From contig JAGVZE010000008.1 in NCBI GenBank assembly GCA_018302815.1, positions 1 through 64,000 of the forward strand: a stretch of 64,000 nt of DNA, written 5' to 3'. The notes below the pieces were generated by a model, which made no database searches, had not been told where the DNA came from, and was given only the letters and a program-made list of their open reading frames with translations. Of the stretch, positions 1 through 56,599 are shown piece by piece. Source of the stretch: Candidatus Woesearchaeota archaeon. GTDB taxonomy: Archaea; Nanobdellota; Nanobdellia; Woesearchaeales; ARS49. Position numbers and translations under genes: made by a program. The stretch's first letter is position 1. Each line of letters starts with the position of its first letter.

Positions 1-158
1 CGGGGTTGAATTTCATACCGACAAAACTAAATCGGCATCACAATGAGGCGTGTAGCCCATGCCTAAAGCCGCTTTCGCAGCGCAAGGCATCCAACACGTA
101 CAAGAAGTCAACATAAAAAACTTTGTCGCCCCCCCCCCCGAAGTAACTGTTTCAAAAA

Positions 159-219
159 AAATTGCGAGCGCTCCGCGCACATTACTAAAAGAATGGCTCG
201 CCCTTCGGGCTCGCAATTT
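159..219 (-). terminator. Inverted repeat plus T-run after the leftward orphan gene
   Basis: An 11-bp perfect inverted repeat (arms 159-169 and 209-219, AAATTGCGAGC type) begins at the stop codon of the leftward gene. On the minus strand the second arm runs into eight consecutive T residues. A smaller GCCC-TTC-GGGC hairpin sits inside the loop at 200-210. This geometry fits a transcription terminator; archaeal terminators are mainly T-runs, so the stem may be incidental. Confidence 0.45.
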
Positions 220-913
220 ATAATGGGCGTACCCGAGCGAAACGGGCGCTATTGTAGAGAATCCTGTAGCCAATACAACCGCAGTCGTAACGAACATTGT
301 TGGCGCACAACGGCCGCAATTGACTCTGCGCAGGACACACCCATCTTCCTTGCGCATCTTGCCGAGGTACCGTCCAAAAAGCCATGGCTACACCACCTTG
401 AATCTGCCCAAAAACAATATCAGAATACCTCTTGAGTAACTTCTTATCACCTTCAACCACCGCAAGCCAACCCTTATGCTTCAAAACCTGATCCGGAGTC
501 AACGGCCGATTATACAAATCAACCCTGTCCTGAACATCAAGCTCAACAAAACTCGTAAAATCATCATAATTCACAGGTAAAAAAAAATTTCTAAACGACT
601 CAGGAACATCATTGAGCAAAGCATCACTACACGGAACAACAAGCCTGAACTTTGTCGTATCTTTCTGATACACAATCGCACTGCTCGTATCCAACCACCT
701 CTCCCACAAACTCGCAGCACCCTCACGCTCGAATTGGTTAATTCTTGCTTGAATAGTCTCCTTGAACGTAAGCGGACGCGCCAAACCTTGAACAAAAGGA
801 TGCAAACCATCATCACCCGCGCACAAACCACGCAACGCAACCAACGCCTCACCATACCTTGCATTCCCAGACCCAACAACCTCCCACTGATTCCAAACGA
901 CGCAAACGATCAT
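218..913 (-). CDS. Hypothetical protein
   Basis: The 231-residue product from the ATG at 913 matches no family I recognise. An in-frame TTG at 937 would add eight residues (MLLSVLLW) and give a hydrophobic N-terminus that could act as a signal or anchor, so the true start is uncertain. The C-terminal third has several cysteines (a WVCPAQ, a CANN and a CGC motif), which may bind metal. It lies about 55 bp downstream of rfcS on the same strand and could be cotranscribed with it. A terminator-like hairpin overlaps its stop codon. An alternative frame covering its 3' part (13-357) has low-complexity content and is probably not coding. Confidence 0.6.
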   Translation of the reverse strand: MIVCVVWNQWEVVGSGNARYGEALVALRGLCAGDDGLHPFVQGLARPLTFKETIQARINQFEREGAASLWERWLDTSSAIVYQKDTTKFRLVVPCSDALLNDVPESFRNFFLPVNYDDFTSFVELDVQDRVDLYNRPLTPDQVLKHKGWLAVVEGDKKLLKRYSDIVFGQIQGGVAMAFWTVPRQDAQGRWVCPAQSQLRPLCANNVRYDCGCIGYRILYNSARFARVRPL

Positions 914-967
914 CCATAACAAAACAGACAATAACAACTGATTATTAAGAATATCTGTTCAAAAAAA

Positions 968-1930
968 CTACTGGCTGCCAGCAAGAACAATCTGAGCTAA
1001 AAGAGCTTCAAGTTGGACGAACTCATCAGCGCCCTCGACCATACGGAACTCGATTTCTCCGCACTTGTCGATGAGAAGAACTTTCTTTCTGCCATCTATT
1101 TCGACGTTCCACACTTCCTGCTGAAGCTGTTTGATTGCATCAACACCGGAAAGACCGTACTTTAGCATAACGTCAAGAAGCTTGGACCTTGCAGACATAA
1201 AATCACCCTTAAGGGCCGTAAGAAGGACTTCTCTTACCTCTGCAGGAGCCGCGAATGAAGCTAGCGAATAGACAACATCAGCAGTGATTAAAGATGCTAC
1301 AGCGGCGCAGGACTGAAGAATATTCGCAACCCTTCTCAAGTCGCCTTCAGCCACCTGAACGAGCGCATCCTTTGCCTTATCGTCCATCTGAAGTTTTTCT
1401 GACTGAATAATATGTTCAACAAGCTTAATAACATCCGCCTTCTCGTGAGGCCTGAAACGAAAAACAGCACACCTACTCTGAATAGGGTCGATAATCTTAC
1501 TGCTGTAGTTCGCTGCAAGAATGAAACGACACGTTGCCGTGTAATTCTCCATCGTCCTTCTTAACGCCTGCTGAGCTTCTCGAGTTAGAGCGTCACACTC
1601 ATCAAGAAAAATAATCTTGAACGGAACGTCACCTAACGCCTTTGTCCTTGCGAAATCTTTTACTTTGACTCTCACCACGTCTATGCCTCGTTCATCGCTG
1701 CTATTAAGCTCGAGGAAGTTATCCCTGTAATTCTCGCCGAAGAACGCTCTTGCAAGAACCAATGCTAACGTGCTCTTGCCTACGCCTGCCGGACCTGCGA
1801 ACAACAAGTGAGGAATATTTCTTTGCTTCACGAACGCTGAAAGCTTATGGACTATCTCATCTTGACCCCTCACGTCAGCAAACGTCTTAGGCCTAAACTT
1901 CTCAGTCCAGATAGCAGAAAGCGGTTCCAT
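968..1930 (-). CDS. rfcS: Replication factor C small subunit
   Basis: This is the clamp-loader ATPase subunit that opens and loads the PCNA sliding clamp onto primed DNA. The 320-residue length is normal for archaeal RfcS. Visible motifs are the RFC-box WTEKFRPKTF near residue 8, Walker A GPAGVGKST at 46-54, the DECD Walker B box at 110-113, the SRC sensor motif at 152-154, and a C-terminal helical collar domain. The start is the ATG at 1930. No RfcL gene occurs in the window, so the large subunit must be elsewhere. It is one of many replication genes in this region. Confidence 0.97.
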   Translation of the reverse strand: MEPLSAIWTEKFRPKTFADVRGQDEIVHKLSAFVKQRNIPHLLFAGPAGVGKSTLALVLARAFFGENYRDNFLELNSSDERGIDVVRVKVKDFARTKALGDVPFKIIFLDECDALTREAQQALRRTMENYTATCRFILAANYSSKIIDPIQSRCAVFRFRPHEKADVIKLVEHIIQSEKLQMDDKAKDALVQVAEGDLRRVANILQSCAAVASLITADVVYSLASFAAPAEVREVLLTALKGDFMSARSKLLDVMLKYGLSGVDAIKQLQQEVWNVEIDGRKKVLLIDKCGEIEFRMVEGADEFVQLEALLAQIVLAGSQ

Positions 1931-1977
1931 AGAAACACGGCCTCATAGGCAGTATAAAAAATTAATGTTTTAAAAAA

Positions 1978-2241
1978 CTAAACAATGTCTTCTTCAGAGA
2001 TGACAAGGAAATCGCCCATCGCGATAACCGCGCTGAACGGAACTAGCAATTCACCGCTCTTGCCCTTCTCAAGATCGAGCTTTTCAGTATATTGCGTCGG
2101 ACTCTTAAGAACAACGTGGATAAGTTCGCCGGACTTTGATTCGAAAACGATATCGCCGACCTCTCCGAACCTCTTACCGTTCTTGCTCACGACAGTCTTA
2201 CCAATAAGCTGCTTTGAGAACTTCTTTTGATCATCAACCAT
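1978..2241 (-). CDS. PRC-barrel domain protein
   Basis: A small 87-residue protein with the PRC-barrel fold pattern: QLIGKTVVSKNGKRFGEVGD, a beta-rich centre, a VPFSAVIAMGDFLV segment and an acidic end. Archaeal PRC-barrel proteins are common; their relatives act in RNA processing (RimM-like) or bind photosystem proteins, but the role of stand-alone archaeal copies is unclear. It sits 47 bp upstream of rfcS on the same strand and may be in the same transcript. The start is the ATG at 2241. Confidence 0.8.
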   Translation of the reverse strand: MVDDQKKFSKQLIGKTVVSKNGKRFGEVGDIVFESKSGELIHVVLKSPTQYTEKLDLEKGKSGELLVPFSAVIAMGDFLVISEEDIV

Positions 2242-2289
2242 AGCACATCACCTTCGTACCTAATAGCACAATTCAATCTTAAAGTGTAT

Positions 2290-3117
2290 TTAAACTTTTC
2301 CACGCTGCAGAAGCAACGTCACTCTTCGCGAGTCATCACAGGTTTTACACGCAGAACAATACTCCTTGCCGCAGCCAATAGGCACTTGCTTTGACTCAAG
2401 GCAGGAACGCACTGCAGAAACTGTCGAAACAACCCAGTTCCTTGCGGCAATGTCAACAACAACGTCCCTTCGCGCATTAGAATCGACGTAATGAACTATC
2501 GCCTGCGGAACTGAACTTTGGAACGTATCTTCTAACATCAAAGCATAACTTACTGCCTGAATGCGATGATGCTCAAACACGCCCTGCTCAGGAGTCTTGC
2601 CCGACTTAAGCTCAATAGGAACAAGCCTGTCGTTGTAGCATTCGAGCTTGTCTATGCGCCCCTTAATACCTAATGATTTGCTTTCAACCGAATACTCATT
2701 CTTAACCTTCGGCTCAAGAGCCTGCCACAACGCATCGCCAGTCATATTTTCTTTTAATAATGGCGCGATAAGACTCGCTCTGGAGTCTGCTTCTGCAACA
2801 ACTAATGGAAGAGCGCTCTTCATCGCATCATCTGGAAGAACGTTAACCGAACGCAACATGCCAACATACATCCTCACACTCTGAAGAAGCAAAGAACGAT
2901 ATTCACTCTCGAGAACCTGCCTTGCAGAATCAGATGCAGACAGAGAAGATACTATGCGCTCTTCATTCTTGCCAAGAAACTCGTGAAATTTGTGCTTGAC
3001 AAGCCCCAACGCCATCGCGGAATTAATCGGCTCCTTGATTTGCAAAACACTCTGCACGAAAAACTGCCTTGGACAATGAATCCAAGATGCTAAAGACGAA
3101 ATGGAAAGAAGCTTCAT
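2290..3117 (-). CDS. Cas4/RecB-like PD-(D/E)XK nuclease with Fe-S cysteines
   Basis: The predicted 275-residue protein looks like a Dna2/Cas4-type exonuclease. A single N-terminal cysteine lies in SWIHCPRQFF and three clustered cysteines near the C-terminus (CGKEYCSACKTC, which also has a fourth) would complete a 4Fe-4S site. The nuclease core shows GRIDKLE (Asp), PIELKSGK (Glu-x-Lys) and the QAVSYALML motif IV region. I choose the ATG at 3117 rather than the GTG at 3132 because a TATA box (CCTATAAAAAT, minus strand, about 3139-3149) would start transcription near 3117. There is no CRISPR array or cas gene nearby, so a general DNA repair role is more likely than adaptation. Confidence 0.8.
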   Translation of the reverse strand: MKLLSISSLASWIHCPRQFFVQSVLQIKEPINSAMALGLVKHKFHEFLGKNEERIVSSLSASDSARQVLESEYRSLLLQSVRMYVGMLRSVNVLPDDAMKSALPLVVAEADSRASLIAPLLKENMTGDALWQALEPKVKNEYSVESKSLGIKGRIDKLECYNDRLVPIELKSGKTPEQGVFEHHRIQAVSYALMLEDTFQSSVPQAIVHYVDSNARRDVVVDIAARNWVVSTVSAVRSCLESKQVPIGCGKEYCSACKTCDDSRRVTLLLQRGKV

Positions 3118-3175
3118 CAAACAAACGCACACGCTCCCATTTTTATAGGTTTGGGACGCAAGTCCAGTGGCGGTT

Positions 3176-3260
3176 GGCGGACGGAACGGCTAGACGGCAA
3201 GTACGGATGACGGATGGATGGCTGACGGCGGGCACGCAAGACGGCTTGACAGCAGTCAAG
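3176..3260. repeat. ACGG-rich short repeats and a small palindrome before tyrS
   Basis: The stretch between the divergent Cas4-like and tyrS genes has seven ACGG words within about 65 bp, several as GACGG, followed by a perfect 6-bp inverted repeat CTTGAC-AGCA-GTCAAG at 3245-3260. It lies just upstream of the tyrS TATA box (3283-3291, ATTTATAAT). It could be an operator or decayed repeat; the sequence alone does not say which. Confidence 0.35.
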
Positions 3261-3314
3261 ATTAAATTACAAAAGCGAAAACATTTATAATCAGCACAAT
3301 TGAGATAAATCACC

Positions 3315-4388
3315 ATGAACGTCGACCAGCGCCTTGCGCTCATAAAAGAAGTAGGACAGGAAATACTAACCGAAGAAGACCTAGTCAAACTACTAAACGA
3401 AAAAAAGAACCCTGTAGCGTACGATGGGTTCGAACCCAGCGGAAGAATACACATCGCACAAGGATTGCTACGAGCCATCAATGTCAATAAAATGACCAAA
3501 GCTGGCTGCACGTTCAAAATGCTAGTCGCAGACTGGCACGCATGGCTCAACAACAAATTCGGCGGGGATTTAGAAAAAATACACACTGCCGGACAATATT
3601 TCGTGGAAGTTTGGAAATCCTGCGGAATGGACATGGACAAGGTCAAGTTCGTCAACTGCAGCGAGTTTGTCAATGACTCAGAATACTGGAAAAAAGTAGT
3701 TGAAGTCACAAGACACACAACAATACAACGAATGATTCGCTGCGGACAAATCATGGGACGAAAAGAAGCAGACGTGCAAAACGTATCAATGCTACTCTAT
3801 CCAGCAATGCAAACAGCAGACATATTCCAACTAGGAGTCGACATCTGCCAACTTGGAATGGACCAGCGAAAGGTCAACATTTTGGCAAGAGAGATAGCTC
3901 CAACGCTCAAAGAAAAACCACCTGTCGCAGTACACCACCACATGCTAATGGGGCTTCAACAGCCTATCCACGTAGAAGGCGACGCAATAGATAGAGGAAT
4001 CGCTTTGAAAATGAGCAAAAGCAATCCGGATAGCAGCATATACATGGACGACTCAACACAAGAAGTAGAAAGAAAAATGAGCAAATCATGGTGCCCTGAA
4101 AAAACAACCATGGAGAATCCTGTTCTCGAGTACTGCAAGCATATCGTTTTTGAACGAACGAAAACGTTCAAGATAGACAGGCCGGAGAAATTCGGAGGAC
4201 CGCTCGAGTTCGAGTCCTATTTAGCACTTGAACAAGCGTACACTCTAGGAAAAATACACCCACTTGATTTGAAGAAGGCTGTTGCCTTGCAACTCAATGA
4301 ATTTATAGAACCTGTTCGAAAACACTTCGCAAAAGGAAAGCCGGCCAAATTACTTGAACAAGTGAAAAGCTACACGATAACACGATGA
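3315..4388 (+). CDS. tyrS: Tyrosyl-tRNA synthetase
   Basis: This is a class I aminoacyl-tRNA synthetase that charges tRNA-Tyr, of the archaeal/eukaryotic type (357 residues). The N-terminal part has YDGFEPSGRIHIAQ, in which HIAQ replaces the HIGH signature, as is usual in this family. The KMSKS loop is intact (ALKMSKSNPDSS, near residue 235) and is followed by the DDS motif. A TATA box at 3283-3291 places transcription close to the ATG at 3315. The stop overlaps the start of the next gene by 4 bp (ATGA), so the two are translated from one transcript. Confidence 0.97.
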   Translation: MNVDQRLALIKEVGQEILTEEDLVKLLNEKKNPVAYDGFEPSGRIHIAQGLLRAINVNKMTKAGCTFKMLVADWHAWLNNKFGGDLEKIHTAGQYFVEVWKSCGMDMDKVKFVNCSEFVNDSEYWKKVVEVTRHTTIQRMIRCGQIMGRKEADVQNVSMLLYPAMQTADIFQLGVDICQLGMDQRKVNILAREIAPTLKEKPPVAVHHHMLMGLQQPIHVEGDAIDRGIALKMSKSNPDSSIYMDDSTQEVERKMSKSWCPEKTTMENPVLEYCKHIVFERTKTFKIDRPEKFGGPLEFESYLALEQAYTLGKIHPLDLKKAVALQLNEFIEPVRKHFAKGKPAKLLEQVKSYTITR

Positions 4389-5632
4389 ACCCTCCACAAC
4401 AGGCAAAAGAAATCAAAAAAAAGATGGAGGAGGTTCTTGCAGCAATACTGGAACTGCGCAAGCACCGTGAAGCCATGATTTTTCTAGCGATTGATTTTTA
4501 CAGCAACCTTGAGAGAAAGCTCACAGAATGTTTAGCGCAGGAACCGGTTGAATTGACGGCGCCTTACCTTGCAGCATGCTTTGAAAAATGGAACAACAAA
4601 GAACCGGAACGGATGAGAGTTCTTCGTATAGAAAAAATAGAAGCGGAGTATCTACGGCTACAAGCACACAAGTTAGAAAATCTTATCTATTCCTTGTTTG
4701 GCCTTATCGAAGACTTCACAGATTTTCTTGACGAAACAACATACATACAGCACGCAAAAACCATCCGCACTCCACTAGGAACAATCAGACTTCGCATATG
4801 CTATGGAGCTTCAAATAGAGATGACATAAAAAATCCATTCAACGAAATCGCAGATTACGCCCAAACCGCTCAAACAATAAATCAAACCATAGAATATATT
4901 GATTCAGTCATTGAAGATGGAATACGCCAAATAATAACACAGAGCGCACTTTTTGAAAGAACGCTTGGAACCTCAAGCAAAGAAGTCATCATCTACGTAG
5001 TGTCATATAAACACGGAAGTGGATTTGTTGACAGAATGGAAACGTTCGCGCGCAACTTACTGGGCAAAAAAACGTTCCGTGTGGAGTTCAAACCAACTCC
5101 AGAAGACATCCGCATCTTCATTGACATCCAACCCCTGCTTGAAAGAGGAGAACCGCTCGGACCAACTCTTGCGCACGAAATCACTCACGTACTTGACGTC
5201 AAGTCATGGGAATATCAATCTTACGCGAACCTCATCAAAGCAGAAGGCATGGCAAAATTCGCAGAGATCATCAACAATACAGAAGCAGGACCATACTATC
5301 CCACTGCATTCAAAGAATACTTCAACCGACCGCTTTCTCGATTCGGGAAAAAAGAAGTTGATAAAGGACTCGAGTATACAATTGGCGCGCTCATGATGAT
5401 TCAACTGTTTTCACAACTCATAGGAAAAGAAGACCAAATGGAATACGCGCTGCTAAAAAGAGATATGCAGACCGTAGTGGACTATTTTAACCACAATAAA
5501 GACAAAGCCATCACGATACTTCAACTTGCAAAACACATGACACCACAGAAGTTCTTCCAATACTATATTGCCAAAATCAACAATCCGCTGCTCACCAAAT
5601 CGCTCATTAAAAAACTAGTCGGAGGGACATAG
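4385..5632 (+). CDS. HExxH protein, putative gluzincin-type metallopeptidase
   Basis: I do not recognise the 415-residue protein as a named family. Its first 250 residues are helical and charged. Near residue 265 it has LAHEITHVLD, a clear HExxH zinc-binding helix, followed about 25 residues later by KAEGMAKFAE, whose glutamate is placed like the third ligand of gluzincins. No signal peptide or membrane segment is seen, so a cytoplasmic peptidase is inferred. The gene overlaps tyrS by 4 bp and so is cotranscribed with it. Activity and substrate are unknown, and the motif pair is the only functional evidence. Confidence 0.65.
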   Translation: MNPPQQAKEIKKKMEEVLAAILELRKHREAMIFLAIDFYSNLERKLTECLAQEPVELTAPYLAACFEKWNNKEPERMRVLRIEKIEAEYLRLQAHKLENLIYSLFGLIEDFTDFLDETTYIQHAKTIRTPLGTIRLRICYGASNRDDIKNPFNEIADYAQTAQTINQTIEYIDSVIEDGIRQIITQSALFERTLGTSSKEVIIYVVSYKHGSGFVDRMETFARNLLGKKTFRVEFKPTPEDIRIFIDIQPLLERGEPLGPTLAHEITHVLDVKSWEYQSYANLIKAEGMAKFAEIINNTEAGPYYPTAFKEYFNRPLSRFGKKEVDKGLEYTIGALMMIQLFSQLIGKEDQMEYALLKRDMQTVVDYFNHNKDKAITILQLAKHMTPQKFFQYYIAKINNPLLTKSLIKKLVGGT

Positions 5633-5641
5633 CGACGGAAG

Positions 5642-5650
5642 CTTTAAATA
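5642..5650 (+). promoter_or_regulatory. TATA box of the PAN gene
   Basis: The sequence CTTTAAATA lies about 27 bp before the ATG at 5673, the standard archaeal spacing, and implies a transcript with almost no leader. Confidence 0.6.
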
Positions 5651-5672
5651 CCCGTCCTCGGTCGATTTACAC

Positions 5673-6803
5673 ATGCCTGAAAACAAAGAAGGAATAAGCT
5701 ACGGATACCAAGTGAACGTCAACGGACTCGAAGAAGAGAACAAATTCCTTCGAGAAAGCGTCGCCAACCTAGAACGCGAGCTTGAAAAGTTCAAAAGAAC
5801 TCCCCTTATATTATGCGAAGTACGCGACATCCTAGATGACAAAGTATTGATACGCCTTCCAAACGGCAACGAATTCTTGGTCGACCAAATGAGCACGTGC
5901 GACAAACTCCACCCCGGAGACACAATCCTTGCAGAACAAAAAAACCTAACAGTAATAAGGAAAATCAACCAGGTGCGCAAGTTCGACGCGGACAAATTCG
6001 TAATCATCGAAAAACCAACCGTCAGCTGGCACCTTGTCGGCGGATTACAACAGCAAGAGCGAGAAATCAAGGAAGTCATTGAACTCCCCCTCACAAAACC
6101 CGCACTGTTCAAGAAAATCGGCATTGACCCTCCAAAAGGAATACTGCTGTACGGCCCACCGGGCACCGGCAAGACACTCCTTGCAAAAGCAGTCGCTGCA
6201 AGCACAAAAAGCACATTCATAGAAGTCGTGGGCTCAGAACTCGTGCAAAAATTCATCGGCGAAGGAGCAAAATTAGTCAAAGAAATGTTCCAAATCGCCC
6301 GCGAAAAAGCGCCGAGCATCATTTTTATTGATGAGATTGATGCTATCGCCGCAGTAAGAATAGATGTAGGAACATCAGGCGAAAGAGAAGTACAACGCAC
6401 GTTCATGCAATTACTGGCCGAAATCGATGGATTCGACCCACTAGACAATGTCAAAATCATCGGATGCACGAACAGACGAGACATCCTAGACCCGGCAATA
6501 ATACGCCCAGGAAGGCTTGATCGGCTCATCCACGTCCCACTGCCAAACGAAGAAGGACGCAAAGAAATCCTCGGCATCCACACCAGAAAAATGACCCTTG
6601 CCAAAGTAGACTTCGAGGAGTTGGTGAATAAAACAGACGGATTCTCAGGCGCAGAACTTAAAGCCGTTGCGACAGAAGCAGGATACTTCGCAATACGCGA
6701 CAACAGAACCAAAATAACACACCAAGACTTCATATCCGCAATGGAAAAAGTAGTCGCGGAAGTAGAAACAGAAGGCCAAGATTACTTGAAGATGTTCGGG
6801 TAA
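5673..6803 (+). CDS. pan: Proteasome-activating nucleotidase (PAN)
   Basis: This is the AAA+ unfoldase ring that feeds proteins into the 20S proteasome. The 376 residues show an N-terminal coiled coil (about 17-43), an OB domain (about 45-100), Walker A GPPGTGKT at 161-168, Walker B DEID at 220-223, the second region of homology with IRPGRLDR, and a C-terminal helical domain. The extreme C-terminus is KMFG; the classical hydrophobic-Tyr-X gate-opening motif would need a Tyr where Phe is found. The gene has its own TATA box and stands alone; no proteasome subunit gene is in the window. Cdc48-type ATPases are excluded by the single AAA domain. Confidence 0.95.
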   Translation: MPENKEGISYGYQVNVNGLEEENKFLRESVANLERELEKFKRTPLILCEVRDILDDKVLIRLPNGNEFLVDQMSTCDKLHPGDTILAEQKNLTVIRKINQVRKFDADKFVIIEKPTVSWHLVGGLQQQEREIKEVIELPLTKPALFKKIGIDPPKGILLYGPPGTGKTLLAKAVAASTKSTFIEVVGSELVQKFIGEGAKLVKEMFQIAREKAPSIIFIDEIDAIAAVRIDVGTSGEREVQRTFMQLLAEIDGFDPLDNVKIIGCTNRRDILDPAIIRPGRLDRLIHVPLPNEEGRKEILGIHTRKMTLAKVDFEELVNKTDGFSGAELKAVATEAGYFAIRDNRTKITHQDFISAMEKVVAEVETEGQDYLKMFG

Positions 6804-6917
6804 CCGCCTAAAAAAAAGTATTACTTTGGGAACGTACGAGAAATCGGAGGAAGTCAGACCGTTTCAAAGTCCAAGGGTTGCAAGGTTTTTTATAGATAAT
6901 TTGAGTTTTTAATATCT

Positions 6918-8693
6918 ATGGCGAAGGATATTTTAAAAGAGGTTGATATCCACCTGAAGTACCCCTTGTCCCAGGTCATACGAGACGTTTGGGGATATGC
7001 TGAAGGTTTTCGAGGGAGAATTATTCTCTATTTTGTTTTTGTTGCAGTCGTTGGGCTTGGACTGAGCGTTCCTCCGTATTTCATAGGTCTGATTATTGAT
7101 GCGCTGCATCTTGGAGACTATACTCACGTGCCAACTTTCTTGGGAGTTATTGCGGGCAGCTATGTCGTCGCGTTATCGTTGAGGCATTACCTGATTTACA
7201 AGACTCGGGTTCTTGCCTCTCAGCTTGTGAATCAAACACGAATCAAAACGATCAATCATCTTTTCTCGCTTGATTTTGCGTTTTATGAGTCAACATCTTT
7301 GGGAACAATTCTTGCTCGCGCTGAAACAGGGGCGCGTTCACTGCATGACTTATTCCGTATTCTTTACAGTACAACTTTACAGCGGATTGTTGTATCCATC
7401 ACAAGCTTTGTTATTATTGTGAAACTCAATATGACAATTGGGATTGTCGCAGCTGTGTTTCTCACTGCATTCATTCTCTCTCATGTCTATACTAATCGTA
7501 TGATGTTGAAGCTGGAAGGTCGAGTTTTCGCAGAAGGCGAGAAGGTTTACGGCAAAGTCTACGACTTTCTTCGACACATCCAGATCGTGAAACTGCTCAA
7601 TGTAAAAGACCGGTTGATAAATGTTTTGAGAAAATCGTACGCAGTCGTTCTGCAAGAGGAGCGGGCACGAAGACGGTTTGAACGGGTGAAAAATGCCATT
7701 TTTGCAAACCTGCTTCGCCTATCTGAAGTAGGAGTACTCGGTTTTCTGGCGTACGAGGCGATGCAAGGAGCGTTGACCGTTGGTCTTGCCATCGCAATTT
7801 GGCAGTATTTTGCACGCTTGAATGAGCAAGTGGATTCTGCGCTGGGCGACTTCCAAGAGCTTGTTCCCGTCAGGACTGCACTTTACCGTTTGCACCTGAT
7901 TTCAGATGTTCAACCGACTATCAAAGATCCAGTAAAGCCCAAAAGCATTCCGTCACAATGGAAACACATTCGTTTTGATTCAGTATCCTTCACATATCAG
8001 ACCAAACACAAGCGTGCAGTTGATGATGTTTCCTTTAAAATCAAGCGGGGTGAGCGCGTCGCGATTGTGGGCGCCACAGGAAGCGGCAAATCAACAATTG
8101 CAAAGCTGCTGTTGAAACTCTATCTCCCGCAAGCAGGACAAATCTTGTTTAATGAAACACCAATAGCCGCAGCAACAACACGAGAGGTCACATCACGGAT
8201 AAAGATTGTCCCTCAGGAGAACGAACTGATCAATACAAGCGTTTATCACAATCTTCAGATAGCTGCGCAAGGCAAACTCACGCGTGAACAAGCCATAGCA
8301 GTTCTTCGCCAAGCAGCCTCAGAAACTTTTGTGAAAAAGCTGCCGCAAGGAATTGATACGCTTGTGGGTCCCGAAGGGATCAAGTTGTCCGGCGGCGAGA
8401 AGCAAAGAATATGCTTGGCGCGGGCATTAGTGAGCAAACCTGAACTGCTTGTTCTTGACGAAGCAACAAGCCATCTTGACGTAGTTACGGAAAGAGAAGT
8501 CTACGAACATTTGAAAAAACTATCACGTGCAGTTACAGTCTTAGCAATCACACATCGCGTCTCCTCGATGTACTTATTTGACCGAATTTTAGTAATGAGC
8601 CATGGAGAGCTTGTTGGAGACGGGACTCATACAGAATTGCTTAGAACAAATAAGTATTATCAAAAACTCTGGAAATCAGGAAAGCACCATTAA
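6918..8693 (+). CDS. ABC exporter, fused permease and ATPase
   Basis: A 591-residue type IV (MsbA/multidrug-like) half-transporter. Residues 30-320 form the six-helix membrane domain and residues 350-591 the nucleotide-binding domain, with Walker A GATGSGKST at 385-393, Q-loop Gln433, signature LSGGEKQ at 490-496, Walker B LLVLDEA at 510-516 and switch His546. It should work as a homodimer exporting a lipid or drug-like substrate; the substrate cannot be read from the sequence. Its coding strand is much richer in T than that of neighbouring tyrS and PAN, which suggests lateral transfer. A TATA-like TTTTTTATAG lies near 6885-6895. Confidence 0.93.
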   Translation: MAKDILKEVDIHLKYPLSQVIRDVWGYAEGFRGRIILYFVFVAVVGLGLSVPPYFIGLIIDALHLGDYTHVPTFLGVIAGSYVVALSLRHYLIYKTRVLASQLVNQTRIKTINHLFSLDFAFYESTSLGTILARAETGARSLHDLFRILYSTTLQRIVVSITSFVIIVKLNMTIGIVAAVFLTAFILSHVYTNRMMLKLEGRVFAEGEKVYGKVYDFLRHIQIVKLLNVKDRLINVLRKSYAVVLQEERARRRFERVKNAIFANLLRLSEVGVLGFLAYEAMQGALTVGLAIAIWQYFARLNEQVDSALGDFQELVPVRTALYRLHLISDVQPTIKDPVKPKSIPSQWKHIRFDSVSFTYQTKHKRAVDDVSFKIKRGERVAIVGATGSGKSTIAKLLLKLYLPQAGQILFNETPIAAATTREVTSRIKIVPQENELINTSVYHNLQIAAQGKLTREQAIAVLRQAASETFVKKLPQGIDTLVGPEGIKLSGGEKQRICLARALVSKPELLVLDEATSHLDVVTEREVYEHLKKLSRAVTVLAITHRVSSMYLFDRILVMSHGELVGDGTHTELLRTNKYYQKLWKSGKHH

Positions 8694-8825
8694 TTTTCAA
8701 AAAGGTCGCCTTGTGCTACGGTGTTTAAGGTCTGAAAATCAATAGTAATTTTCTCTGAAGAAACGTAGAACAATATTTGTTTGACTGCTCATCGAAACAT
8801 TGTTTGTATATAGAAATTAATGGTG
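8685..8825. repeat. 12-bp inverted repeat that includes the ABC exporter stop codon
   Basis: CACCATTAATTT at 8685-8696 contains the last codons and stop of the exporter gene. Its exact reverse complement is at 8814-8825, 117 bp further on. The pair could base-pair in the 3' untranslated RNA. Whether it matters is unknown. Confidence 0.4.
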
Positions 8826-9014
8826 AAAAAAACGTGTTTTCCAGAACAAAAAAGTTGGGTTCCAGATTTTAATAACCGTCCAAATATTGGAATGCCCCCT
8901 TGAACCAAGCATGGTGAGTTTAATACTCGTATAAACCACACAAGAACCTCTTCAATTCTGACGTATTAAACTGTGAGAAAAGCCGATAGTTTCTGCGAAA
9001 AGCTTTTGTAGAGT
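8694..9014. other. Intergenic stretch without a convincing gene
   Basis: This 321-bp AT-rich gap separates the exporter from the P-loop kinase gene. It holds the distal arm of the inverted repeat and a 27-codon open frame (8820-8903) preceded by a TATA-like GTATATAG. I cannot support the short frame as a gene. Nothing else is evident. Confidence 0.5.
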
Positions 9015-32413: not shown

Positions 32414-32998
32414 ATGAATGAGCCAACCGCTGATTTTTTGAAAAATGCATCCACTCGCAAAGCATTTCATGACGTAATTTCCATAGTTCTCAGCAATATT
32501 GATGCCGAAGAAGAAATATATTTGATTGGCGGAACAGTCTATCGGACGCTCGCACAGGAGTGGTATGGAATTGTCCCTCCAGACTGCGATTTTGATTTTC
32601 TTATCTCAAAGCCACTCGCGCGTTTAATCGTACCTAATACTTATGTTGTTAAAACTAATAAGCACGGAAATCCAAAACTTGTATCGAACAAAATCAGCAT
32701 AGACTTTGTGCCCTTAAATACAGTCCACTCCATTAAAACCAGAGAACTTGAACCTACCCTCGAGAACTATCTCACAGGAGTTCCACTCACAGTTCAATCC
32801 ATTGCATATGATGTGAAGAACAAACGAATAATTGGCAATATAGGACTTCGCGCACTTCAGGAAAGATCGGTAAAAATCAATAATCCTGCCGAGTTTGCCT
32901 ACTATTGTGAGATGAAAAACAAAAAACCGCAGGACATCATTCGTGAAAAGGCAGAGAGTTTATCTTTTTCACCAGACTATGAAGGGTTATTATTCTAG
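32414..32998 (+). CDS. Nucleotidyltransferase-like protein
   Basis: A 194-residue protein with the start of a polymerase-beta type nucleotidyltransferase fold: EEIYLIGGTVYRTLAQEW (the GG motif) and DCDFDFLIS (Asp-x-Asp metal site), as in the head domain of poly(A)/CCA-adding enzymes. No RNA-binding C-terminal domain is present, so this is a stand-alone head domain. Substrate unknown. The ATG at 32414 fits a TATA-like TTTTTAATAG about 25 bp upstream, whereas the GTG at 32366 would lie before it. Its last codons overlap the RPA-tail remnant on the other strand. Confidence 0.65.
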   Translation: MNEPTADFLKNASTRKAFHDVISIVLSNIDAEEEIYLIGGTVYRTLAQEWYGIVPPDCDFDFLISKPLARLIVPNTYVVKTNKHGNPKLVSNKISIDFVPLNTVHSIKTRELEPTLENYLTGVPLTVQSIAYDVKNKRIIGNIGLRALQERSVKINNPAEFAYYCEMKNKKPQDIIREKAESLSFSPDYEGLLF

Positions 32999-33037
32999 AA
33001 TTTTAAGCCTTCCAGGCCTTATCTCGAAAACTTCGCC
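32990..33037 (-). pseudogene. Remnant of the RPA-like gene 3' end
   Basis: On the minus strand these 48 bp encode GEVFEIRPGRLKILE and a stop, the same 15 residues that end the RPA-like gene at 33159. The six nucleotide differences between the copies are all synonymous. The stop lies inside the last codons of the convergent nucleotidyltransferase gene. Upstream the frame stays open for about 18 more codons but does not match the RPA-like gene. Confidence 0.75.
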
Positions 33038-33040
33038 CAC

Positions 33041-33119
33041 AAACTTTGAGAAAGTTTGATCAAAGCGCTTCTCAGCTCGATTCGAGAAGCAATTTCATAA
33101 ATCCCTTCTTCGAAGGGAT
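33041..33119. repeat. Three perfect hairpins in a row
   Basis: Hairpin 1 at 33041-33057 has a 7-bp stem (AAACTTT-GAG-AAAGTTT). Hairpin 2 at 33067-33090 has a 7-bp stem (GCTTCTC/GAGAAGC) with a 10-base loop. Hairpin 3 at 33101-33119 has an 8-bp stem (ATCCCTTC-TTC-GAAGGGAT). They fill the DNA between the RPA-tail remnant and the real gene end. Confidence 0.7.
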
Positions 33120-33158
33120 GTTTATGACTCTTCTCTCATCTTGCAGATGTCGCGCGAC

Positions 33159-33698
33159 TTACTCCAAAATTTTAAGCCTTCCAGGCCTAATCTCAAAAAC
33201 TTCACCCATAGCGAGCATATGGATGATGGTTTCTTCTCCGCCGGCGCCCAGTTTTGTGACAACCTCATTGTAATCCGCGCCATCGCCCGCGTCAAGAGCG
33301 CGAACAACATCAAGAGGGCCAGTTGTCGATGTTGAAGCTGCCGCCTGAATCTTCGGAGGGTTAGACTTTCTAGCCCATTCCATCCACTTGCTGTCAATAA
33401 TTTTAACAACCTCCGCAACAACGTACCAATCACCATTATACACTCGCGGTCGTCCAATCACAAGAACAGGAGAACCTATCTGCACCGCGAAAGACTTGTC
33501 AAACGAACGCACAAGAACACTACCAGTACCATCATCCACAACCAAATCATCGCTCACCACAAGACCGTATATCCTGATCTTCGAAATAGAATCTCCGCTC
33601 GCAAGCATAACAGTCCCAGCAGAACTATCAGACTCTACAAATCGTCCTGAAACGAGCTCTCCAACGTACACGTGCCTTGCGGCATCTCCCCAATCCAT
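33159..33698 (-). CDS. RPA32-like single-stranded DNA-binding protein
   Basis: A 179-residue protein with one OB-fold (about 5-100: VYVGELVSGRF, ISKIRIYGLVVS, VLVIGRPRVYNGDWYVVAEVV) and a C-terminal winged-helix-like domain (about 125-179) that ends EVFEIRPGRLKILE. This is the RPA2/RPA32-like layout of archaeal RPA-associated proteins, which bind single-stranded DNA in replication and repair. The large RPA subunit is not in the window. A minus-strand TATA box (CATAAATAGC near 33710-33720) precedes it. Its last 15 codons are duplicated downstream. Confidence 0.8.
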   Translation of the reverse strand: MDWGDAARHVYVGELVSGRFVESDSSAGTVMLASGDSISKIRIYGLVVSDDLVVDDGTGSVLVRSFDKSFAVQIGSPVLVIGRPRVYNGDWYVVAEVVKIIDSKWMEWARKSNPPKIQAAASTSTTGPLDVVRALDAGDGADYNEVVTKLGAGGEETIIHMLAMGEVFEIRPGRLKILE

Positions 33699-52150: not shown

Positions 52151-52321
52151 AGAGCACTCTCTGTTAGTCTACTCTTCAACACGATACACTTTTATCGTAT
52201 CCAACCCGACAAAGCCTTTTGCGAAAACCCAGAAAAGAACACGTGCATTTGCACCGACTGTACTGGGTTTTCTTCTCAGGCTCGTCAGTAATGCACTCGA
52301 GTAAAGAGGTGGTTTATAAAT
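52151..52321 (-). promoter_or_regulatory. Promoter and structured leader of the ribosomal protein operon
   Basis: A minus-strand TATA box (ATTTATAAA, 52313-52321) predicts transcription from about 52290, so the leader before uL3 is about 140 bases. It contains a perfect 10-bp inverted repeat (GAAAACCCAG at 52223-52232, CTGGGTTTTC at 52263-52272) enclosing a small GTGC/GCAC hairpin (52243-52254), then a 6-bp stem (52181-52186 with 52193-52198) near the start codon. This looks like an RNA control element; binding partner unknown. Confidence 0.55.
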
Positions 52322-52373
52322 GTTCCTGTTTTCAAGGAGGTATGTAAATAAAAATCGATAATTGTGAAGAGCA

Positions 52374-53586: not shown

Positions 53587-54228
53587 GTGACAGACATAAC
53601 AAATCTTGTTGAAACTGAGGGACGCATACTTGCGGAGCTTCAAGGAAGCCTGAGCGCTTATGCAAGCATGGTAGGATGGAGCGCGAACTGCGATTACGCA
53701 TCAACTCCAATCACTACAGGCAAGCGATTGTACGACTCAATGCGTGATGCAGGCGTGCGAACAATAGCAGAGTTCAAACAGCTGCATCCTGGACCGGTCA
53801 AGGAAATAATGCGCCTTAACATAGAAGATGGAGAGAAATTCGCAATTCACCTTCGGGAAACAGAAGAGCGCACTCTTGTGATTTCACCAGCAACATTCTT
53901 CATGAAGGGATGGACTCAAGACCACTATATGTCTTTTTGGGAGAGAGTAATAGAACAATTCGCGACACGAGTTCGCCTCAACAAAGAATGGCATTATTCC
54001 AACGGGTGCGCAGAGGAATGCAGAATGGCATTCGCAACAGGCAAACAAGTCTTCGAAGGCGCATGCATCATAACGCCCAACGAAGCAGTCGCAAAACTCA
54101 AAGATACTATTCGCGAAATAAGCACAATAACATCAGATATAACCTCTCTTTACAATACGTATCGAAGATTGGAACTCCTCGCATTCACCCGGCAAAAAGA
54201 GAGTGATCAAAAACGCATCATGCTTTAG
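53587..54228 (+). CDS. Putative nucleoside deoxyribosyltransferase-like protein
   Basis: A 213-residue protein starting with GTG. The middle (VISPATFFMKGW, then LNKEWHYSNGCAEECRMAFA) resembles the nucleoside 2-deoxyribosyltransferase/DUF4406 fold, where a W/S/G-rich loop is followed by E in a helix, here GCAEE. The N-terminal and C-terminal thirds are helical. Function is tentative. Its last codons overlap the primase-tail remnant read on the other strand. Confidence 0.45.
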   Translation: MTDITNLVETEGRILAELQGSLSAYASMVGWSANCDYASTPITTGKRLYDSMRDAGVRTIAEFKQLHPGPVKEIMRLNIEDGEKFAIHLRETEERTLVISPATFFMKGWTQDHYMSFWERVIEQFATRVRLNKEWHYSNGCAEECRMAFATGKQVFEGACIITPNEAVAKLKDTIREISTITSDITSLYNTYRRLELLAFTRQKESDQKRIML

Positions 54229-54329
54229 CAGGACTGTCCTGATTATTTGGCGATTTGGATGGCGCGCCCTCTTCTTTCTTTTTTCGCTTGCCCTTATTCT
54301 GCTCTATCTCCTGATCCCTTGCGACATTA
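54218..54329 (-). pseudogene. Remnant of the primase gene 3' end
   Basis: On the minus strand 54272-54329 is identical over 58 bp to 55214-55271 in the primase gene and encodes NVARDQEIEQNKGKRKKKE. It then continues in frame with a different 17-residue tail and a TGA at 54218-54220, inside the last codons of the convergent gene. The similarity ends sharply at both sides. It is a displaced gene tail rather than a gene. Confidence 0.8.
54272..54329. repeat. 58-bp perfect direct repeat, left copy
   Basis: Identical to 55214-55271, 942 bp apart. Bases just outside the repeat differ on both sides. The two copies bracket a pair of membrane protein genes. Confidence 0.9.
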
Positions 54330-54424
54330 TGTTCTTTGCGAGCAACGTGTTCTTGCGCGCATAATGCTTTTTTTAACCGGGAATGGGACAAACATTTAAA
54401 AATAATCAAATCACAGTGTATGTC

Positions 54425-54736
54425 ATGTTCATCACTTCGCTTTTCACTGCCACGATTTTGGTCGGCGTTATTTCGATAATTCTTGCAATGCGGGCAAAGG
54501 TTTATGCTATCAATGAGTTGAAAAAAGCATTCGGACTTTACTCGTATACCATTATTCTTCTGAGCATCGGATTTATGCTCCATTCGATTGGTGATGGATT
54601 TTCTATCTTCCTTGGAGATATGATGGGAGAACTCTTCGAAGCAGTCAGCCACATTATTATCTTGATAGCACTCATCATGTTCTATATCACTGCGCAACAA
54701 TTCATAAAAAGCACCAAGGAGTATTGGTATAAATGA
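54425..54736 (+). CDS. Small membrane protein, first of a pair
   Basis: A protein of 103 residues from the ATG at 54425, with three hydrophobic helices (FITSLFTATILVGVISIILA; YSYTIILLSIGFMLHSIG; AVSHIIILIALIMFYITA). A His in the second helix and one in the third recall metal- or heme-binding helices, but no family is recognised. A TATA box (CATTTAAAAATAA, about 54394-54406) supports this start over the longer frame. It overlaps the next gene by 4 bp. Confidence 0.6.
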   Translation: MFITSLFTATILVGVISIILAMRAKVYAINELKKAFGLYSYTIILLSIGFMLHSIGDGFSIFLGDMMGELFEAVSHIIILIALIMFYITAQQFIKSTKEYWYK

Positions 54737-55113
54737 TCGAAATCTCGACTATCAATATTATCTCGCAGGCGACATCAATATTTGCGATGATTATAGGAAT
54801 CATGGGACTTGGCCAGATTATCATCCTGGTGGCCGCCACAAGCCATTTGGAGAGCGGGTCCTCACTAAAACGGATTGGTATTTCTTTACTGGTCGTTTTG
54901 TCCATGACACTGGTAAGTGTTGTTTCAATGACTGTCCATCACATTTTAACAGATATGACTTGGGAAGGTGTACGCGAAAATACAGAAGCAATATGGTATC
55001 TTGGACTGTTCATAGGACTTATATCGTCGTGGTATGGATCACATGTCGCCATAACATTAGGACAGTCCATGCAAAATGTCAACGTGCTACTCAATAAGAA
55101 GTTTAAAAAGTAA
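54733..55113 (+). CDS. Small membrane protein, second of a pair
   Basis: A 126-residue protein with four hydrophobic helices, the third containing a TVHHIL His pair (about 67-70). It resembles its partner in size and helix layout. The two genes overlap by 4 bp, so they form an operon and probably a complex. Together they fill the cassette between the two 58-bp repeats. Function unknown; heme or metal binding through the histidines is only a possibility. Confidence 0.6.
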   Translation: MIEISTINIISQATSIFAMIIGIMGLGQIIILVAATSHLESGSSLKRIGISLLVVLSMTLVSVVSMTVHHILTDMTWEGVRENTEAIWYLGLFIGLISSWYGSHVAITLGQSMQNVNVLLNKKFKK

Positions 55114-55132
55114 TGTTTGATGCAAATAAACT

Positions 55133-56599
55133 CTATTGATTTTCGGATGTGCTATTTTGTTTCGGTTCCTGAACAGTGGGTGTTTTGGCAATTTTTACGA
55201 CGTCTATGGGCGGTTCTTTCTTTTTTCGCTTGCCCTTATTCTGCTCTATCTCCTGATCCCTTGCGACATTACGCTGCTTCATAAGAGCATAACTCGCAGG
55301 ATTCTTCACTCGCGAATCAAATTGAGGGCTTGAAGAAGGACCGTTTGGCCTACAAAAACCATCAGGCACGCACACGCCGATATCGACCATATACGCCTTG
55401 TTCTTACAGCTCGGCGGAAGTTTTGGCTTTTGAGTCTTCGCGTATCTTAATTGGCCATTGATGTAAACCTCTCTTAACGGCTCAGGATTCTTCTTGTTCC
55501 AGTCATTCACGTATCTTTCAATCTCCTCATATTTCCAACCGCAAGAACCCAAGAAATTTATTAGAATAAGAAGCGCGCGCTTCTTTCCATCAATCATTCC
55601 TTCACTTATTTTTTGGATGCAAGGCGGGAAAAACTGCGCTGGAATCGCGGTTAGAATCTCATCGAAAGCCCTGTTATTCTCCTGCTTTGGAACCTCTATT
55701 CGATTCTCATTAGCTGACTTGAAATCAAACGCGTGGACTATGAGTTTTTTCGCTTCATTCGGAACTATTCCCATCCTCTCCATAAATTTGAGCTTGGGAA
55801 TAACTTTGTCAGGATCAGCCATAGGCCGGTCAAATGAAAGAATCGAATCCGCAGGTATGACTATGCTCGCAAGACCTGATTTTTCATTGAGAGAATAAGG
55901 CATACGGTACAAATGCCTTGACGCAATGAGCACAGTATCTATCGTCAGAACAGCGAATCCGTCGAGTTTTCCATTCTTCACTAATTCAACTTGTTCCTTT
56001 CCAATATTTTTCGCTATCAGTGAAACATCACCCGCTTCTTTTTCAAGAATCTTTTGCGCAAGAGCATCCTTAATCATCGACGCCAAATAAGCCGCGATTT
56101 TTCTTGGACCTTCCGGAAAAAGATTTTTCACAGGAACACCATTCATAATTTCAGGAAAAGCCTCGAAAGGAATGCCAATATGGAAACCGTGATTGCCGGA
56201 GAATTTCACCGAGACACTCTTTATGCCGTGATATCTTAATGCCTGCACGAGCAAATCGCCCGCGATTTTCGAATATTCTAATTCGGGACAATCTATATCG
56301 AGGAGCAAATCCCAGCCGGATCGCAGCTCGTTCAATTCCTGTGGCTTCATACCAGTCACGACCTGAAGCGGATTTTTCCACAGTTCCTCGCTGCAATGAA
56401 AACTCGTGGCTCCTTGCTTTACAGCCTCAAGAACATCACGAGGGTATGCAAGAGAGTCAGGACGCTTGCCATAACCTGTTCCCCCATAACTTACCGCCAC
56501 TTCCTTGCTAGAACCTGCCTCAACCAACGCTTCCTGAATCTCCTGACGCTTATAATATCTCAAAACAAAACCAACATCAAGCTTCTTGTACTGCGCCAT
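55133..56599 (-). CDS. priS: DNA primase, PriS catalytic domain fused to a PriL-like domain
   Basis: The 488-residue protein makes RNA or DNA primers for replication. The first 300 residues are an archaeo-eukaryotic primase: DIDC with Asp101 and Asp103, and the SGNHGFH motif at 134-140. The C-terminal part (320-416) looks like the Fe-S domain of PriL: FPPCIQK (Cys327), Cys353, PPSCKN (Cys398) and Cys410. A single-chain primase of this kind is known from Nanoarchaeum-type archaea. The start is the ATG at 56599, set by a TATA box. A Lys-rich tail (about 440-488) includes the 58-bp repeat. Confidence 0.85.
   Translation of the reverse strand: MAQYKKLDVGFVLRYYKRQEIQEALVEAGSSKEVAVSYGGTGYGKRPDSLAYPRDVLEAVKQGATSFHCSEELWKNPLQVVTGMKPQELNELRSGWDLLLDIDCPELEYSKIAGDLLVQALRYHGIKSVSVKFSGNHGFHIGIPFEAFPEIMNGVPVKNLFPEGPRKIAAYLASMIKDALAQKILEKEAGDVSLIAKNIGKEQVELVKNGKLDGFAVLTIDTVLIASRHLYRMPYSLNEKSGLASIVIPADSILSFDRPMADPDKVIPKLKFMERMGIVPNEAKKLIVHAFDFKSANENRIEVPKQENNRAFDEILTAIPAQFFPPCIQKISEGMIDGKKRALLILINFLGSCGWKYEEIERYVNDWNKKNPEPLREVYINGQLRYAKTQKPKLPPSCKNKAYMVDIGVCVPDGFCRPNGPSSSPQFDSRVKNPASYALMKQRNVARDQEIEQNKGKRKKKEPPIDVVKIAKTPTVQEPKQNSTSENQ
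55214..55271. repeat. 58-bp perfect direct repeat, right copy inside priS
   Basis: Encodes residues 444-462 of the primase. Beyond it the gene goes on with 26 further codons that differ from those after the left copy, so the current C-terminus differs from the ancestral one. Confidence 0.9.

Follow-up and report, generated by a model that had tools for sequence, protein, structure and literature searches.

Genomic islands at dusA and dusB are flanked by imperfect direct repeats (attL and attR), and the gene end then comes from the island, the original one having been displaced (PMC4482086). In Archaea, a 9.5-kb element at a tRNA gene of A. veneficus lies between 55-nt perfect direct repeats, with an integrase beside the distal repeat (PMC4158269). 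Here we consider a locus at which the insertion of less than 1 kb of DNA, encoding no recombinase of its own, would incidentally have given an essential replication gene a new C-terminus. Our preferred reading, which we consider probable, is that a ~0.9-kb membrane-operon segment was inserted into the 3' end of a primase gene, the new tail coming from the insert and the old one being displaced.

The primase gene, its repeat and the inserted cassette

The window is the whole 64,000-nt stretch of DNA that was analysed, from a genome whose nearest named relatives are Woesearchaeota MAGs. It encodes a fused PriS-PriL DNA primase of 488 aa (55133-56599, minus strand), with weak Pfam matches to both primase subunits, an NCBIfam match to PriS (3.4e-5) and 60-68% identity over its full length to the primases of five relatives. 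Fused PriS-PriL primases are described as general in DPANN cluster 2 (PMC7414124), so the target gene is the same known fusion and ordinary for the group; what sets it apart is a disordered tail that has probably been replaced. The primase also carries a 12-residue insertion, PNGPSSSPQFDS (window about 55311-55350), after the conserved cysteine of the C-terminal domain, which is absent in the five nearest relatives.

Two identical 58-bp copies lie on the minus strand, a proximal one within the primase C-terminus, encoding NVARDQEIEQNKGKRKKK (55214-55271), and a distal, displaced one recovered by repeat search (54272-54329). The first-pass annotation had reported a perfect repeat spaced 942 bp from start to start, and both its exactness and its standing beyond chance are confirmed: with up to three mismatches allowed, the repeat occurs in the window at these two places alone, and it was found in 0 of 100 dinucleotide shuffles (chance expectation 0). 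A whole-genome DNA search with 54200-55300 matched no place beyond the primase locus itself. The sequences bordering the copies show no significant similarity between the two sites, and the copy edges are sharp. As to features of diversity-generating retroelements, the copies show no adenine differences, being identical, and no reverse transcriptase lies between or beside them.

Past the proximal copy the primase frame ends with EPPIDVVKIAKTPTVQEPKQNSTSENQ and a stop. This present tail, PPIDVVKIAKTPTVQEPKQNSTSENQ with its stop codon (55133-55213, minus strand), lies inside the interval between the copies and is presumably of incoming origin; the reading frame is intact and its end sits inside the insert. 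Past the distal copy the same frame runs through EEGAPSKSPNNQDSPAKA to a stop at 54218, which falls within the convergent gene by 11 bp, as the first-pass annotation had described when it noted a different tail ending in the neighbour. Joining the primase flanks in silico yields a 479-aa primase with an 11-bp overlap with the convergent gene. The displaced tail (54218-54271, minus strand) is likely to be the old primase tail, judging from its weak homology to the primase C-terminus of the related genome G013 (PNNQDSPAK against PNSKDVPVE; p 0.04 unanchored, 0.02 anchored). The anchored DNA alignment of these two ends is not significant (p 0.51), the proximal tail resembles G023 just as weakly (p 0.044), and a protein comparison of the distal with the proximal tail gives p 0.52. 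In the tail swap proposed by the first-pass annotation, the distal in-frame tail is thus present as described, and its identity as the ancestral tail is likely rather than settled.

The inserted segment between the copies (54330-55213) measures 884 bp and has 39.8% G+C against 44.6% for the window. It encodes two small membrane proteins on the plus strand, TM1 (54425-54736; predicted start) and TM2 (54733-55113), which overlap by 4 bp. A TATA-like box inside the cassette, TTTAAAAATA (54395-54404, plus strand), about 26 bp before TM1, suggests that the cassette carries its own promoter. TM1 has an invariant H...GD motif and a second histidine, TM2 a conserved histidine and a WY pair, and no Pfam or NCBIfam family fits either protein. 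Such pairs are rare: at E up to 0.001, TM1 has a homologue in 7 of the 353 genomes of the order that were searched, and in one of the seven it is a broken fragment. Homologues of TM1 were found in G033, G013, G304, G270, G202 and on contig C14 of the same genome, and all but the G304 homologue, which has no recognised partner, are paired with a TM2 homologue, mostly overlapping or nearly so. Judging from this pairing alone, the simplest guess is that the two proteins form a two-subunit membrane complex. The paralogous pair on C14 was considered as the donor of the cassette and rejected, being 26-30% identical with no DNA match. No flanking direct repeats were found around the other membrane pairs.

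TM1 and TM2 are the sole genes between the repeats, and no recombinase, integrase or transposase was found in the cassette, which agrees with the earlier description of an insert under 1 kb without an integrase. The insert ends carry no terminal inverted repeats; the sole local inverted pair is not terminal; it links the displaced tail (54231-54253) with TM2 (55046-55068) by an imperfect 23-nt match (83%, 10 bp exact) and may have arisen by chance. Where an insertion sequence or MITE would have a short target duplication and a transposase, this locus has a 58-bp one and no transposase in the insert. Viral contigs held no relatives of the primase or of TM2 and no match to the 58-bp sequence.

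Target duplications made by transposases are typically 2-15 bp long. A staggered break or a transposition of some unknown kind could still have produced both copies from the target, by fill-in of a 58-base stagger, with the present tail a chance frame in the insert; the history would be the same and the enzymology different. The identical copies, their sharp edges and the dissimilar flanks are what such an event would leave, whereas 58 bp is far above the typical range, neither terminal inverted repeats nor a transposase are present, and at the comparable structured elements described below the synonymous pattern rejects neutral decay of a target duplication. We consider this variant rather unlikely.

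Gene order in relatives and the history of the locus

The relatives compared belong to other genera of the family, none to the same genus. The convergent gene (53587-54228, plus strand) has a weak match to DUF4406 (E 7e-4, below the cut-off) and homologues in G004 and G019. In G013, whose primase is 65-67% identical, a remnant of this gene's 3' part (42% identity over aa 138-202, E 1.5e-6) immediately adjoins the primase with no cassette in between, and the stop of the decayed gene is placed 41 bp inside the primase coding end, making a 41-bp convergent overlap. Because this decayed copy overlaps the primase end in a cassette-free order, the convergent overlapping neighbour is older than the cassette. 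The TM1-TM2 pair is absent between primase and ribosomal protein L3 in 15 of the 15 relatives that have both genes on one stretch; L3 follows the primase there, mostly after a gap of 136-594 bp, and in two relatives after 2-3 kb with other genes.

Taken together, the cassette-free order in G013, the 15 relatives lacking the pair and the presence of the pair elsewhere argue that the insertion split a convergent pair. Comparison of the locus across relatives, which the first-pass annotation had proposed, has therefore turned up the cassette-free order it anticipated. Its ancestral convergent overlapping pair is borne out by that order and by the 41-bp overlap, and its view of the two membrane genes as inserted by their absence from the interval in 15 relatives and their pairing at unrelated places, C14 included. 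No close relative was found that lacks the cassette and has the present primase tail.

Two further observations concern the surroundings. A different gene, by eye deoxyribosyltransferase-like, converges on and overlaps the primase end in G002 (L035, G002:C14, 7958-8443, reverse complement), so convergent overlap at the primase end occurs with another partner as well. Immediately upstream of the ribosomal L3 operon, about 150 bp (window 52178-52331) are intergenic yet 71-75% identical in three other genera; this stretch has no Rfam match and may be a conserved leader or promoter region.

Alternatively, as the first-pass annotation also allowed, the pair may already have stood beside a primase that ended as it does now, and a 58-bp piece of that gene may have been copied later into the gap before the convergent gene. 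Such a templated duplication could draw on the similarity of the proximal tail to G023 (p 0.044) and on the imperfect 23-nt inverted match between the distal tail and TM2, of a kind that template switching might leave. It sits poorly with G013, where primase and convergent gene adjoin each other and the pair is missing, with the absence of the pair from this place in each of the 15 relatives, and with the distal frame, which reads on into the convergent gene in a way similar to that in G013. We regard it as improbable. Far less credible still is an assembly artefact, in which two strain variants, one carrying the cassette and one lacking it, were merged at the 58-bp repeat. The assembly is a MAG in 26 contigs, but ordinary reads are longer than 58 bp, the frames are intact on both sides, and gene-end duplications of a similar kind are seen in genomes that were assembled independently.

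Under the preferred insertion, a ~0.9-kb segment comprising a promoter and the two-gene membrane operon would have entered the 3' end of the primase, between it and its overlapping convergent neighbour, leaving a 58-bp piece of the primase C-terminus at both sides of the insert. The copy beside the primase body would then read on into the tail supplied by the insert and, since that tail is in frame, the primase gene would stay intact. The original tail would remain as a displaced fragment, in frame and still entering the convergent gene. Such an event would resemble the integration of elements into gene ends, in which the gene is restored by the arriving DNA, except that the cassette encodes no recombinase. 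Joining might be performed by an enzyme acting in trans, by repair or by homologous recombination; we infer both the origin of each tail and this joining step.

A family of structured short elements at gene ends

Besides the 58-bp pair, the 124.5-kb contig has a single exact direct repeat longer than 24 bp within 6 kb. This second repeat, of 57 bp (C21:110977/111173), consists of the promoter and the first 14 nt of an intron-containing tRNA and lies around a 139-bp structured insert (locus G000:C21 110977-111229; L054 12977-13233). The insert is a dispersed element with four more copies in this genome at 72-77% identity. The five copies are ~115-140 bp long, with direct repeats of the target of 61, 44, 42, 50 and 103 bp, and the left direct repeat ends exactly at the CAAACTTT end of the element. 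About 70 occurrences of the pattern CAAACTTTN{1,8}AAAGTTTGATCAAA were counted in 24 of 96 related genomes, against 0 in the reversed control. About half of the element copies examined have direct repeats within 7 nt of the end (typical random score 10), and 17 copies have a fold in common, 13 of its 25 predicted pairs having changed on both sides. The target genes include tRNA genes, ftsZ, an OBG-like GTPase, inorganic pyrophosphatase and an OB-fold protein (names by inspection). Matches to the hairpin pattern in two viral-set contigs were set aside as chance, given phage-like gene content and no element core. As candidate partner enzymes, HUH transposase (PF01797) and reverse transcriptase (PF00078) were rejected, their distribution being patchy and not following the element.

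One copy lies in the window itself (33040-33153, plus strand; nhmmer E 7e-35), at the 3' end of an OB-fold-like gene (33159-33698, minus strand). Rfam gave no match in the window. By sequence comparison, the displaced gene end at this element, GEVFEIRPGRLKILE with its stop (32990-33039, minus strand), encodes the same protein as the functional end (33159-33208, minus strand): the two share the same 15 residues and stop, with six synonymous differences.

For seven protein genes, the C-terminus can still be read from the displaced copy. Between displaced and functional ends there are 31 synonymous and 6 nonsynonymous changes, whereas 80% would be nonsynonymous under random change (p about 1e-16). 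As a displaced fragment is not under codon selection, this synonymous excess shows that the two ends diverged as working genes and that one was imported; at the structured elements, on this codon pattern, one gene end came from a diverged allele. As to which end is the original, the displaced end in G017 continues into the downstream sequence that directly follows the gene in the element-free G002, and in the 39 nt compared it differs from G002 at 7 positions, the functional end at 12 (not significant), which is suggestive of the displaced end being the original one. The same test of direction in G019 found no orthologue in G004. At the primase itself the 58-bp copies are identical, so the synonymous allele test does not apply.

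The core of the element is absent from the primase cassette, nhmmer finding in the window the copy at 33040 alone, so the likeness to these elements does not place the cassette in their family. What it shares with the CAAACTTT hairpin family is a long direct repeat of the gene end and a restored gene, and the layout is common to both kinds of locus: body, repeat, new end, insert, repeat, old end and old neighbour. By analogy, the structured elements support the history first proposed for the primase, and the architecture, which the first-pass annotation had likened to that of an integrated element in the 3' end of a gene, recurs in this genome, direct repeats included.

Gene-end copies also occur away from the element. 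In the sample of this genome, about 0.88 Mb taken as stretches, for 8 of 23 tRNA genes a truncated duplicate of the gene's own end is present within 600 bp, compared with 2 of 60 random places. These copies lie around small inserts without the hairpin element (e.g. L192 14231-14568, L212 1303-1520, C21 106093-106224), and some of them are found on both sides or are interrupted by a further insert. Other repeat pairs in the sample were discarded as paralogous genes, coding repeats or dispersed repeats, and no second gene-carrying case was recognised in these ~0.88 Mb. Dispersed repeats in intergenic DNA, about 100 bp long or longer, occur in L188 (G000:C13) 1-9000, at the start of L182 and in L193 12668-14328, those on C13 adjoining an IS66-like transposase gene.

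Open-licence literature yielded no description of the structured element, and this family appears to be undescribed and the more novel part of our observations, ahead of the primase cassette. A wider proposal, possible though for now doubtful, is that Woesearchaeota carry an undescribed class of tiny integrative elements, about 115-140 bp long with a conserved, covarying fold, which now and then contain genes, the primase cassette being such a case. Each would pass from one related species to another along with the final 25-100 bp of a housekeeping gene, whose end it would replace while the old end stays behind, and the machinery would act in trans.

Comparison with known systems

The primase case led to a recurrent gene-end signature in Woesearchaeota, with structured short elements at which the functional and displaced ends are different alleles. 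If confirmed, this would mean that tiny pieces of DNA can spread between species without harm to their target genes, in small genomes with little known mobile DNA. MITEs derive from insertion sequences and have terminal inverted repeats and short duplications, neither of which is seen at the primase cassette. The cassette resembles them in being short and free of a transposase, and in that it would be mobilised in trans if at all (review PMC10969869). With the A. veneficus element it shares perfect direct repeats of near-equal length, one of which overlaps the target gene, whereas that element has an integrase, is ten times longer and targets a tRNA gene (PMC4158269). The dusA/dusB islands likewise insert into the end of a housekeeping protein gene and replace that end, as we consider likely for the primase, yet they use the 5' end of the gene and sites of 19-28 bp, are large and carry an integrase, in contrast to the 58-bp copies, 3' end and 884 bp without an integrase seen here (PMC4482086). 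Gene-end replacement by integrase-bearing islands and archaeal repeats of ~55 nt are therefore already known, and the primase locus differs in the missing recombinase and the size.
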